Assembly: GCA_031280235.1 (NCBI GenBank)
Contig: JAITHA010000085.1
Coordinates: forward strand, 1 to 45,998
Reading direction: 5' to 3'
Source of the DNA: Puniceicoccales bacterium
GTDB taxonomy: Bacteria; Verrucomicrobiota; Verrucomicrobiia; Opitutales; UBA953
DNA: 45,998 bases
Made by a program: the position numbers and the translations under genes
In this document: one piece after another, positions 12,362 through 16,166 of the stretch
Position numbering within the stretch: the first letter of the stretch is position 1
Layout of the letters: every line of letters begins with the position of its first letter
The notes under the pieces: model-generated
What the model was told of the DNA's origin: nothing
Seen by the model: the letters and a program-made list of their open reading frames with translations, nothing else
Database searches by the model: none

Positions 12362-14041
12362 TCAGGATTGGCTGTTGACCCTGTTGAATGCGCTGATGAG
12401 GGCGAAGAGGCTGGCGCGCTCGATGCTACTGTCGATGCCGCAGCCCCAGTAGATCTCCTTGTCGCAGAGGCGTTGGAGGGCGACGTAAGCGGCGGCGTTT
12501 GCGGCGGAGCCGATGCCGAGAGCTTCGGAGTGGTAGGAGACGAGGAGGAAGTTTTTCCAGCCCTGTGCCTCAATGGCGTTGACGAATGCGTTGATGGGGC
12601 CGTTGCCTTGGCCGTGGAGAGTGTATGTGGTGTTGCGGTGTGTGACTTGGGCGCAGATGGCCAAGCCGCCGGGTGCCTCCAGATTTTTCTGTTCGAAGTG
12701 CCCTATCTGCAGAGGCGAGGCCAGGTTGACGAAGCGTTCGTGGAAGGCTTGGTGGATTTCGGCGGATGTGAGCTCCCGCTGTTTTGCATCGGCGATGGCG
12801 TTGATGGTGTTGCCGACTTGCGGGTGCATGGCCTTGGGGAGGTCGAGGCCGTAGTCGCGATGGAGGATGTAGGCGATGCCTCCTTTGCCGCTTTGAGAAT
12901 TGATGCGGATGATGGCTTCGTAGCTGCTGCCGATGTCTTGCGGGTCGATGGTCAGGTAGGGGACTTCCCAAGGGGCGTTGTTGTCGTTGGCCTGGGCGCG
13001 GCGGTCCATGCCTTTTTTGATGGCGTCTTGGTGGGAGCCGGAGAATGCGGTGAAGACGAGGTCGCCGGCGTAGGGGTGGCGCTCGTGCACGTTCATGCGA
13101 GTGCAGCGTTCGTAGGTGCGACGGATGTCGGCGAGCTTGTCGAGCTTGAGTTTGGGGTGGATGCCGTGAGTGTACATGTTTAGGGCGACGGTGACGATGT
13201 CGAGGTTGCCGGTGCGTTCGCCGTTGCCGAAGAGGGTGCCCTCGACACGTTGGGCGCCTGCCATCAAGGCCAGTTCTGTGGCGGCCACGCCTGTGCCCCG
13301 GTCGTTGTGGGTGTGCAGGGAGAGGATGGCCTTGTCGCGCTCGCTCAGGTGTTTGGCGAACCACTCAATCTGGTCGGCGTAAACGTTGGGCGTTGTCCAC
13401 TGCACGGTTTCCGGGAGGTTGAGGATGATGGGTGCGGTGGTAGTCGGTTCCCAGATGTCCATTACGGCCTCGCAGACTTCCAAGGCGTATTCCGGCTCGG
13501 TGTCGGAGAAACTTTCCGGTGAATATTGCAGGCGCATTCCCGGAAGGCTTGGTGCGAGTGTTTTGACGAGGGCAGCTCCCTCTTGGGCGATTTGCTTGAT
13601 GCTCTCGCAGGAAGCGTTGCCGAAGGTGATGCGCCGCTGCAGGGGCGAGGTGCTGTTGTAGATGTGGATGATGGCCCGTCGGGTACCGCGCAGGGCGTCG
13701 AAGGTGCGGCGGATGAGGTGCTCGCGGCATTGCACGAGTACTTGCACGGAGACGTCGTCCGGGATGAGGTTTTCCTCGATGAGCTTGCGGCAGAAGGCGA
13801 ACTCTGTGTCGCTGGCGGAGGGGAAGCCGATTTCGATTTCCTTGAAGCCGATGGAGACGAGGAGTTGGAACATTTCCAGTTTTTCGTGGATGCCCATTGG
13901 GCAGGCGAGGGCCTGGTTGCCGTCGCGCAAATCCACGCTACACCAGATGGGTGCGTTGGAAATGGTTTTGCCCGGCCATTGACGTTCGGGCAGGGAGATG
14001 GTTGGGAAAGGGCGGTACTTGGTAATGGGTGCGTTCTGCAT
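12362..14041 (-). CDS. leuA: 2-isopropylmalate synthase (long form)
   Basis: A 559-residue enzyme for the first committed step of leucine synthesis: acetyl-CoA plus 2-oxoisovalerate to 2-isopropylmalate. The HMGL-type barrel shows VDLRDGNQA with metal-binding Asp40, and HTHNDRGTG with His243 and His245, then GNGERTGN. The C-terminal ~130 residues are the LeuA allosteric domain that binds leucine (EALGIGSAANAAAYVAL), so feedback inhibition is expected. The opening (KYRPF, then W..K.I..APIWCSVDLRDGNQ) and length match the type-2 form of actinobacteria and yeast rather than the ~515-residue E. coli type. A promoter, Leu-rich leader peptide and terminator upstream suggest transcription control by leucine supply. 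Confidence 0.96.
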   Translation of the reverse strand: MQNAPITKYRPFPTISLPERQWPGKTISNAPIWCSVDLRDGNQALACPMGIHEKLEMFQLLVSIGFKEIEIGFPSASDTEFAFCRKLIEENLIPDDVSVQVLVQCREHLIRRTFDALRGTRRAIIHIYNSTSPLQRRITFGNASCESIKQIAQEGAALVKTLAPSLPGMRLQYSPESFSDTEPEYALEVCEAVMDIWEPTTTAPIILNLPETVQWTTPNVYADQIEWFAKHLSERDKAILSLHTHNDRGTGVAATELALMAGAQRVEGTLFGNGERTGNLDIVTVALNMYTHGIHPKLKLDKLADIRRTYERCTRMNVHERHPYAGDLVFTAFSGSHQDAIKKGMDRRAQANDNNAPWEVPYLTIDPQDIGSSYEAIIRINSQSGKGGIAYILHRDYGLDLPKAMHPQVGNTINAIADAKQRELTSAEIHQAFHERFVNLASPLQIGHFEQKNLEAPGGLAICAQVTHRNTTYTLHGQGNGPINAFVNAIEAQGWKNFLLVSYHSEALGIGSAANAAAYVALQRLCDKEIYWGCGIDSSIERASLFALISAFNRVNSQS

Positions 14042-14155
14042 GGCTGAGGGAGTTGGTGTGCAAGGCGTGCTGGCTGAGAGAAAATGTCGGGCGTACGAAA
14101 AGGTGGCCCAGATGTTGTGGATTGCGGATTTTTGCGACGGTTTCCGCAGCCGTGT

Positions 14156-14182
14156 AAAAAATAATCACTCCCCCAAGGGGAG
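14156..14182 (-). terminator. Rho-independent terminator in the leuA leader (attenuator)
   Basis: On the minus strand CTCCCC (14182-14177), loop TTG, then GGGGAG (14173-14168) form a perfect six-pair stem. After the TGA comes a T-rich tract TTATTTTTT (14164-14156). The gene behind it, mutL, is on the other strand, so there is no upstream minus-strand transcript to end. The terminator can only act on transcripts that begin just before it and run into leuA. Its 5' arm overlaps the last codons of the leader peptide. Confidence 0.7.
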
Positions 14183-14221
14183 GAGATTAAGAAGTCGAAG
14201 GAATGTGGCTTGTGCCCCCAT
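14165..14221 (-). CDS. leuL: Leucine-rich leader peptide of leuA
   Basis: An 18-codon frame, MGAQATFLRLLNLLPLGE, with six leucines (residues 8, 10, 11, 13, 14, 16), ends 123 bases before leuA. The Leu codons are CTT, CTT, CTT, CTC, CTC and TTG. No strong ribosome-binding site precedes the ATG, but many genes in this window also lack one. It starts only about 14 bases from the likely transcription start. A ribosome stalled at the CTT CTT pair (14194-14189) would cover the 5' arm of the terminator and favour read-through. Unlike the trp/leu scheme of enteric bacteria, the peptide's own end lies in the terminator stem, so the timing differs. The symbol is by analogy. Confidence 0.6.
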   Translation of the reverse strand: MGAQATFLRLLNLLPLGE

Positions 14222-14241
14222 GAATGATTTACGAGGGCGCG

Positions 14242-14270
14242 AATTGATGGTGTCCTGCGCAGAGCGTCAA
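14242..14270 (-). promoter_or_regulatory. Likely sigma-70 promoter for leuA leader
   Basis: TTGACG (14270-14265, five of six matches to the -35 box), a 17-base spacer, then TCAATT (14247-14242, three of six to the -10 box). Transcription would begin near 14235, giving a leader of about 195 bases that contains the Leu-rich peptide and the terminator. The -10 match is weak. Confidence 0.45.
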
Positions 14271-14327: not shown

Positions 14328-16166
14328 ATGCCAGAAATCCGGGTATTGCCAGAGGATGTTGCCAGCCAGATCGCAGCAGGCGAGGTGGTTGAGCGTCCGG
14401 CGTCGGTTGTGAAGGAGCTTTTGGAAAACAGCCTCGATGCCGGTGCGACGCGCATCAGTGTGGAGTTTCGCCATGGCGGGCGGGCTCTGATCGTGGTTGA
14501 GGACAATGGGTGTGGCATGACGGCGGACCAGGCCGTGATGTCGCTGGAGATGCATGCGACGAGCAAGGTGCGTGCGGCGAGCGACCTTGAGGCCATCCGC
14601 ACGTTTGGTTTTCGCGGTGAAGCGGTACCGTCCATCGCGAGTGTTTCGCGCTTCACCTTGCGCACGCGCCCGGCGCAGGCACTCATGGGGACGGAGCTCG
14701 TCGTGAATGCCGGCCGACTACTCCAGCAAAAGGAGACGGGCATGGCGCCTGGCACGCGGATCGAGGTGGCGAATCTTTTTCACCCAGTGCCAGCGCGCCT
14801 GAAGTTCATGAAAACGGAGAACACCGAGGCGGCGCACATCACGCGCCTTGTGCGGCTCTACGCTGTGGCCCAACCGCAGGTGGGTTTTCTTCTCATGGAA
14901 AATGGGCAGGAGATTTTTCGTTCGCCCGCCTCAGACAATCTTTCCGACCGCGTCCGGGAAATCTGGGGGAAGCAGCTTGCGGCAGATCTTTTACCGCTGG
15001 CGCCAGTGGATGGGGTGGGGATGCGCTTGCACGGCTTGTTAGGCAAGGCGGGTGTGGGGCGCTCGACGCGCCAGGAGATGGTCACCATTGTCAACGGGCG
15101 CCCGGTGGACAGCCGGGTGCTCGCCTACTCACTCGTGGAGAGTTATCACACGCTTTTGCCGAAGGGGCGTTTCCCGCTAGCGTTTTTATTTTTTGAAATA
15201 GACCCGTATTGGGTGGATGTGAACGTGCACCCGGCGAAACGTGAAGTGCGTTTTCGCGATGAAGCCCGGGTGCGGCATTTTGTAATAAGCGCGGTGCTGC
15301 GTCATCTTGAAGAGACGAACGCAATCCCTCCCATTTTTGCGCCCGCTCCCACGGTCGTGCCCGGAGGAATTGCTGTGCTGGATGCGCGGTCGAGGCCGGA
15401 AGAAACTGCGGCAGCCGAAGAAAGTGCCCGCGTTGTCGATGTACCGTTGGTGTGTGCGCCAGCCGACGGGGCAAGCCGGGACAACTCGCTTGTGGTCGTA
15501 CCTCGTTTTTCCCACCAAGACGAAGCCCCGGCTCGTGTTGTTTCGCCTGTGGTGGCACCCCCGGTTTCGCCGCCGACAAATGCGCGTATTGGATGGCGCC
15601 TCGCCGGGCAGTTGCCCGATGAAATCTTGCTTTTTGAAACGCCGTCCGGATTGCTTGTTTTCAATCTGAAGGCGGCACGTGCACGGATTTGGTATGAACG
15701 CATTTTGCAGCGTTTTGAGAGAAACGACCTCGTTTCCCAACAACTTCTTCTCCCCATCCCATTGGAGCTGGAACCACTGGCAGCAAACATTCTCCGCGAA
15801 CGCCAGGCTTTTTTGCGTGAAGCCGGTTTTGACCTTGCTGAGTTTGGGCGAAATTTTTTTCGTATTCAGGCCGTCCCCGACTGGTTACCTGAGGAGGATG
15901 TTGAGCGCAGCGTGCGCGACATCCTCGCAGTGATTGGGCGTAGCCCCGGCGAAACCCAGCGCAAGCGTATCGCCTGCGAATTACTGGCGGGCACGGTGGC
16001 GGAATGGGCCATGCGCGGCAGTGGCGGCGCGCTCTCTGGCGGTACTGTGGACGAGGTGTTGCGGGAATTGTTTCTCTGCCGCCAACCGACGGTTTGCCCG
16101 CGCGGGCGGCCTATCTTTTTTGAGATGACACGAGCCGAGCTTTCGCGTCGCTTCGGGAACGAGTAG
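14328..16166 (+). CDS. mutL: DNA mismatch repair protein MutL, apparently without endonuclease site
   Basis: A 612-residue protein that links mismatch recognition by MutS to strand removal. The N-terminal GHKL ATPase is complete: AAGEVVERPASVVKELLENSLDAGA (start of motif I), VEDNGCGM, and TFGFRGEA (motif III). The C-terminal dimer domain occupies ~420-612. The metal-dependent endonuclease of most bacterial MutLs needs DQHAxHExxxE; at the matching place (446-457) this protein has NLKAARARIWYE. The second metal site, usually CPHGRP, reads CPRGRP at 590-595. Both changes suggest a nicking-deficient MutL, as in MutH-dependent E. coli. The gene is divergent from the leuA leader, and I see no strong ribosome-binding site before the ATG. 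Confidence 0.95.
   Translation: MPEIRVLPEDVASQIAAGEVVERPASVVKELLENSLDAGATRISVEFRHGGRALIVVEDNGCGMTADQAVMSLEMHATSKVRAASDLEAIRTFGFRGEAVPSIASVSRFTLRTRPAQALMGTELVVNAGRLLQQKETGMAPGTRIEVANLFHPVPARLKFMKTENTEAAHITRLVRLYAVAQPQVGFLLMENGQEIFRSPASDNLSDRVREIWGKQLAADLLPLAPVDGVGMRLHGLLGKAGVGRSTRQEMVTIVNGRPVDSRVLAYSLVESYHTLLPKGRFPLAFLFFEIDPYWVDVNVHPAKREVRFRDEARVRHFVISAVLRHLEETNAIPPIFAPAPTVVPGGIAVLDARSRPEETAAAEESARVVDVPLVCAPADGASRDNSLVVVPRFSHQDEAPARVVSPVVAPPVSPPTNARIGWRLAGQLPDEILLFETPSGLLVFNLKAARARIWYERILQRFERNDLVSQQLLLPIPLELEPLAANILRERQAFLREAGFDLAEFGRNFFRIQAVPDWLPEEDVERSVRDILAVIGRSPGETQRKRIACELLAGTVAEWAMRGSGGALSGGTVDEVLRELFLCRQPTVCPRGRPIFFEMTRAELSRRFGNE

Follow-up and report, generated by a model that had tools for sequence, protein, structure and literature searches.

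The region between mutL and leuA of an uncultured Opitutales bacterium, whose relatives come from termite guts, carries a short leucine-rich reading frame that runs into the stem of a terminator-like hairpin. This arrangement raises the question of whether the frame and the hairpin form a leader-peptide attenuator of leuA, as a first-pass annotation had proposed, and of how such an attenuator would work when the leader and the terminator overlap. The window, i.e. the whole stretch of DNA that was analyzed, is 45,998 nt long. The placement of the leucine codons and the conservation of the unit in relatives support the proposal, and the element is probably a leucine attenuator of leuA.

All the parts are present in the mutL/leuA intergenic region, on the minus strand between 14270 and 14156: promoter-like boxes, the Leu-rich ORF, the hairpin and a T-rich tail (Table 1). 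The annotated TTGACG-17-TCAATT pair is found at 14270-14242, with a poorly matching -10 box, and was not called by a promoter scan. The predicted start site lies about 13 nt 5' of the leader ORF, giving a nearly leaderless 5' UTR with no clear Shine-Dalgarno sequence. GGGGGAG was considered as a Shine-Dalgarno-like element and rejected, there being no suitably spaced start codon in the window. The peptide of 18 residues with its six leucines was confirmed ahead of leuA. According to NCBIfam matches mutL and leuA diverge, so the terminator serves the leuA transcript only, in agreement with the annotation. The untranslated stretch between the leader and leuA is 122 nt long and contains 46 C and 19 G.

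Table 1. Features of the leuA leader region and the flanking genes (positions in the window)
Feature	Position	Strand	Basis
-35 box TTGACG	14265..14270	-	sequence, 5/6 match
Weak -10 box TCAATT, 17-nt spacing to the -35 box	14242..14247	-	sequence, 3/6 match
Leader ORF MGAQATFLRLLNLLPLGE and stop, 18 aa, 6 Leu, start codon at 14221	14165..14221	-	Leu-rich frame conserved in relatives
Leu8-Arg9-Leu10 codons CTT CGA CTT	14192..14200	-	CGA-CTT pair = 14197-14192
Predicted terminator hairpin: outer stem UAAUC/GAUUA, inner stem CUCCCC/GGGGAG, loop UUG	14162..14189	-	folding
U6 tract, directly 3' of the outer stem	14156..14161	-	sequence, folding
Predicted H-type pseudoknot, S1 + S2	14123..14153	-	similar place in 14/15 family members
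leuA, 2-isopropylmalate synthase, presumed regulated gene	12362..14041	-	NCBIfam NF002991 and TIGR00970 above cut-off
mutL	14328..16166	+	NCBIfam TIGR00585

The comparative evidence comes from the leuA upstream regions of about 220 sequences. A combined test was used, which requires a TTGAC box, at least four Leu in the last 14 codons and a GC hairpin over the end of the ORF. Of 190 leuA upstream regions 40 passed, where dinucleotide shuffles gave on average 0.05 per 190; the 190 regions are related, so that the fraction is no probability, though the excess is large. When the intergenic region of the window itself was shuffled by dinucleotides, one of 2000 shuffles passed, and none of 2000 did when at least six Leu were required and the -35 box was dropped. 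It is this recurrence of the unit before leuA that marks it, on comparative grounds, as a probable leader-peptide attenuator.

The comparison of relatives suggested in the first-pass annotation found the Leu-rich frame and the hairpin conserved in seven of nine genomes of the window's genus, seven of eight of the sister genus g3 and the single genome of g4 (L002 and L015 were judged by eye). The ORFs of these genera mostly stand behind a TTGAC box, end in ..LLP(xGE) before the stop codon or in close variants, and build the hairpin with their last codons. The box precedes the leader start by about 35-55 nt in 14 of the 15 leader-bearing family members. The same unit is scattered over many other Opitutales families. 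The two genomes of the window's genus that are devoid of the leader (L007 and L026) apparently have another coding sequence directly upstream of leuA. No leucine leader was found in genera g2 and g5 of the same family (L024, L028, L029, L031-L035, L039-L043), where leuA mostly lies directly behind a gene for a small basic protein with its own terminator. Upstream of ilvB and trpE of the same genome no similar leader was found, and neither the window nor its relatives gave a match in Rfam, Leu_leader included. Conservation of Leu over other residues is only modest, with 45 synonymous Leu-Leu changes against 47 Leu-other changes in close pairs.

The hairpin had been described as a perfect stem of 6 bp with a T-rich tail. 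Both are there, and the structure proved to be longer: around the inner hairpin CTCCCC-TTG-GGGGAG (14182-14168), UAAUC (14189-14185) pairs with GAUUA (14166-14162) in the folds. Because this outer stem pairs, the U6 tract abuts the stem; the inner hairpin alone would be about 7 nt away from the U-run. The full hairpin has a folding energy of -13.5 kcal/mol (z -2.4); folded over its entire 84 nt, the leader is not more stable than its shuffled versions (z -0.5). All 42 distinct sequences keep inner pairs 1-5, and 39 of them keep pair 6 as well, but since pairs were counted on hairpins picked for pairing, the informative part is the C-G/T-A double changes, which occur at pairs 2, 4, 5 and 6. The outer stems vary in their letters (UAAUC/GAUUA, ACAA/UUGU, GCUU/GAGC), still bring the hairpin up to the U-tract, and hold their place in several members despite the changes. 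RNAalifold on the window's family, f1, returned the inner hairpin only, because the varying stems misalign. A terminator of any kind accompanies 20 of 91 leaders (1.4 in shuffles). Nine of the 15 leader-bearing members of the window's family have a terminator with a U-tract over the end of the ORF, which is hardly seen in the rest of the order; outside f1 the leader and the hairpin are mostly kept and the U-tract is absent. The U-tract is thus a trait of the window's own clade, whereas the leader and hairpin occur far more broadly. An intrinsic terminator is predicted by folding between the leader start and leuA in the window and in these nine family members.

Leaders of other build were also seen. 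In family f14 (L196-L217) a leader MR...QALRLT is followed by a hairpin ACGCACGATC..GATCGTGCGT without a U-tract, and the helix CAGGCN..NGCCTG (e.g. CAGGCG..CGCCTG) that closes around CTTCGACTTA seems, by eye, to covary. In family f8 (L030, L151, L168, L173, L181, L184, L187) ACTTGCC in leader codons 4-6 is complementary to GGCAAGT downstream of the hairpin, with apparent compensatory variants of this long-range helix, GCTTGTC/GACAAGT and TTTGCC/GGTAAA, again by eye. L236 and L238, of the same phylum and another class, have a leader M(K/N)..FNSLELL.LAGDTLREFCAC before leuA and, standing apart after it, a strong terminator GAACCTCTCCG..CGGAGAGGTTTTTTT, which gives this attenuator a classical look. 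L244 (G005:C33), a MAG of the same genus as the window, carries an enteric-like ilv leader, MTFSGNNVLSVLISLVLVLVAVVPSRAGRAC, and then a strong terminator upstream of the acetolactate synthase large subunit gene; transfer or contamination is possible in this case.

The choice of leucine codons sets the leaders apart. Compared with the leuA bodies of the same loci, the leaders use CTT (28% vs 8.5%) and CTA (14% vs 2.6%) far more often, and CGA-CTT accounts for 27 of 50 Arg-Leu pairs in leaders against none of 109 in leuA bodies; recognized non-leader ORFs of family f17 were left out of both counts, and shared ancestry inflates those of CGA-CTT. Of the CGACTT occurrences 66 are in frame and one is not, the in-frame count possibly including some f17 non-leaders. 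The f17 ORFs with CGACTT were rejected as leaders, as they look like the end of an upstream gene, presumably the C-terminus of UDP-glucose dehydrogenase. In the window, and likewise in many of the Opitutaceae-like genomes of f14, the pair occupies codons 9-10. Decoding of CGA relies on an inosine-adenine wobble pair, and one reading is that CGA in the P site would make the next CTT especially slow. CTT and CTA together are concentrated where a stall would reach the arm of the hairpin (70/114, against 60/145 at earlier positions; p 0.0017); CTT and CTC together show no such positional difference (p 0.21). According to theory, control codons are those whose tRNA loses its charge first (codon sensitivity; PMC1183508), and the enrichment of rare Leu codons in the leaders is in line with it. 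Leu-rich frames with an in-frame CGACTTA directly before a hairpin were also seen upstream of leuA in L081, L083, L085-L089, L091 and L106, mostly Alphaproteobacteria, several of them with two such motifs in tandem.

Judged from its anatomy, the element quite probably attenuates leuA transcription through the translating ribosome, with charged leucine tRNA as the signal sensed. Transcription would start at the predicted site, and the leader would then be translated. In keeping with the annotation, Leu codons are placed next to the 5' arm of the terminator and within it, an arrangement conserved in relatives; control would fall to the CTT and CTC codons there, above all to the CTT behind CGA. 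When leucyl-tRNA is scarce, the ribosome would stall at Leu10-Leu14 with its leading edge over the outer stem or the 5' arm; the hairpin could then not draw up to the U-tract, and the polymerase would read into leuA. With no ribosome there, the full hairpin would form and transcription would stop.

The geometry was examined with general E. coli values for the ribosome footprint and the size of the polymerase. A stall at Leu10-Leu14 places the leading edge (first base of the P site +15) at ORF nt 40-52, and the outer stem and 5' arm occupy nt 33-45; at Leu8 the edge just reaches the outer stem (nt 34). Since the leading edge of a stalled ribosome covers the outer stem or the 5' arm, the terminator could be prevented without an antiterminator. 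With the stop codon at nt 55, the end of the U-tract at nt 66 and about 14 nt inside the polymerase, the ribosome is limited to about codon 14 at the moment of decision. An unstalled ribosome that follows closely would therefore block the hairpin too, also in leucine excess. The proposal that a stalled ribosome itself covers the 5' arm thus fits the geometry, but such coverage is not peculiar to stalling. Hence, simple occlusion explains read-through under starvation and not by itself termination under plenty, which would require normally lagging ribosomes or a further element. In some relatives the first Leu codon is at nt 7-16, and a ribosome stalled there would not cover the arm. Plain occlusion has about an even chance of being the way of working. 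The antiterminator that had been suggested, pairing of a G-run at the start of the ORF with the C-run of the 5' arm, did not hold up: it is absent from the minimum-energy fold even before the 3' arm exists, and the G-run is not common to the relatives inspected. No conserved antiterminator was found in the minimum-energy folds of the window or in relatives.

A further element may lie in the RNA that follows the U-tract, where a pseudoknot is predicted from S1 (ACGG, 14153-14150, with CCGT, 14140-14137) and S2 (TGCGGA, 14148-14143, with TCCGCA, 14128-14123). An H-type pseudoknot with quite different letters in each can be drawn in 14 of 15 family members (L003-L018), beginning 11-16 nt after the inner stem. 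It reaches p<=0.02 against shuffles in 12 of the 15 members and in four of 39 control windows; this test was not blind, because the pattern had been noticed in the output beforehand. Taken as a nested fold, the 45 nt behind the hairpin show no exceptional stability (mean z -0.9). The modeled pseudoknot may take part in the decision. Programmed -1 frameshifting at UUUUUUA before the pseudoknot was considered and rejected, as the leader reaches its stop before the U-run and a spacer of no more than 2-3 nt is left.

The hairpin might alternatively serve chiefly in pausing and synchronizing, like the classical 1:2 hairpin, with the decision made downstream by a second hairpin or pseudoknot, or by Rho on the C-rich stretch. 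This is rather unlikely, although several features are in its favor. Other Opitutales families retain the leader and a hairpin without a U-tract, the loop often contains the stop codon in the manner of classical 1:2 hairpins, a second structured element comes after the first, C outnumbers G before leuA, and six T stand behind the second hairpin of L010, a member of the sister genus g3. In the window, however, it is the first hairpin that has its own U6 and the second that has none. The G-rich 3' arm of hairpin 1 is, by eye, not complementary to the G-rich 5' arm of the next hairpin, and the excess of C over G before leuA is hardly lower where leaders are absent (1.56 vs 1.41). A leader-specific C-rich Rho site was rejected on this last ground.

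A second alternative makes the pseudoknot and hairpin a structured RNA, riboswitch-like or protein-binding-like as in the actinobacterial LEU element, with the peptide secondary. The similar spacing of the pseudoknot under changing letters speaks for it, as does the conserved pseudoknot upstream of leuA in Actinobacteria (PMC1262725). Nevertheless it is improbable: the loops of the pseudoknot are without the evident conserved letters that an aptamer would need, Rfam gave no match, and beyond the window's family the pseudoknot turns up only here and there, while the Leu-rich frame and the in-frame CGA-CTT are maintained. Finally, it is highly improbable that an ordinary 5' terminator or hairpin stands next to a Leu-rich frame by chance. 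A short frame together with a 6-bp hairpin says little by itself, and the whole-leader fold is unexceptional, but the shuffle tests, the recurrence before leuA across families, the in-frame CGACTT and CGA-CTT counts and the lack of such a leader before ilvB and trpE all disfavor chance.

The leucine attenuator is thus retained as the preferred reading. A broader proposal, doubtful at present, is that of a distinct attenuator class across Opitutales, nearly leaderless in its ORF, with CGA-CTT shortly before the hairpin and no antiterminator, in which the conserved pseudoknot of the window's family joins the decision, the CGA-CTT device being used in alphaproteobacterial leuA leaders too.

The element resembles the enteric leu attenuator (leuL; Rfam Leu_leader) in having a Leu-rich peptide before leuA, a terminator and rare Leu control codons. 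In enteric leaders distinct segments form the antiterminator and the terminator lies past the stop codon, whereas here the ORF runs through the terminator, with neither an antiterminator nor an Rfam match found. In the pyrBI attenuator of E. coli the leader ORF likewise extends through the terminator, and a ribosome close behind the polymerase blocks the hairpin; pyrBI differs in that UTP is sensed, through polymerase pausing, and no amino acid.

The layout had been annotated as possibly undescribed in this lineage. It has a precedent in the short ORFs overlapping a terminator hairpin that were predicted upstream of actinobacterial ilvB (PMC1262725). These leaders (also the ilvB-II motif; PMC10272879, PMC11857589) share the short ORF rich in branched-chain residues and the overlap, and differ in gene and phylum; the C. 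glutamicum ilvB leader, unlike the present one, has a separate terminator with an antiterminator. For S. coelicolor, leader codon substitutions are cited, at second hand in PMC1262725, as being without effect. The actinobacterial LEU element combines a Leu leader peptide with a pseudoknot upstream of leuA, and its run of Leu codons pairs with the leuA Shine-Dalgarno sequence at the base (PMC1262725). That pairing is not found here: the pseudoknot is separate, comes after the terminator, does not include the Leu codons and ends about 80 nt before the leuA start. The Staphylococcus aureus ilvD attenuator (PMC5794164) also has a Leu-responsive leader peptide on which stalling is proposed to prevent the terminator; its terminator is 52 nt downstream of the stop codon and an antiterminator fold is proposed.

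A search of the open-access literature turned up no account of attenuation by leader peptides in Verrucomicrobia; the CGA-CTT pair and the post-terminator pseudoknot appear to be undescribed in this group. The element would extend this form of control to that phylum. It offers a natural case of an ORF that overlaps its terminator with no evident antiterminator, to which the standard model is not directly applicable, and its CGA-CTT signature makes the idea of slow, starvation-sensitive codon contexts testable. As leucine leaders and terminator-overlapping ORFs are already known elsewhere, the element is of a known kind in a new lineage, a variant in its layout, its codon pair and, possibly, its pseudoknot.
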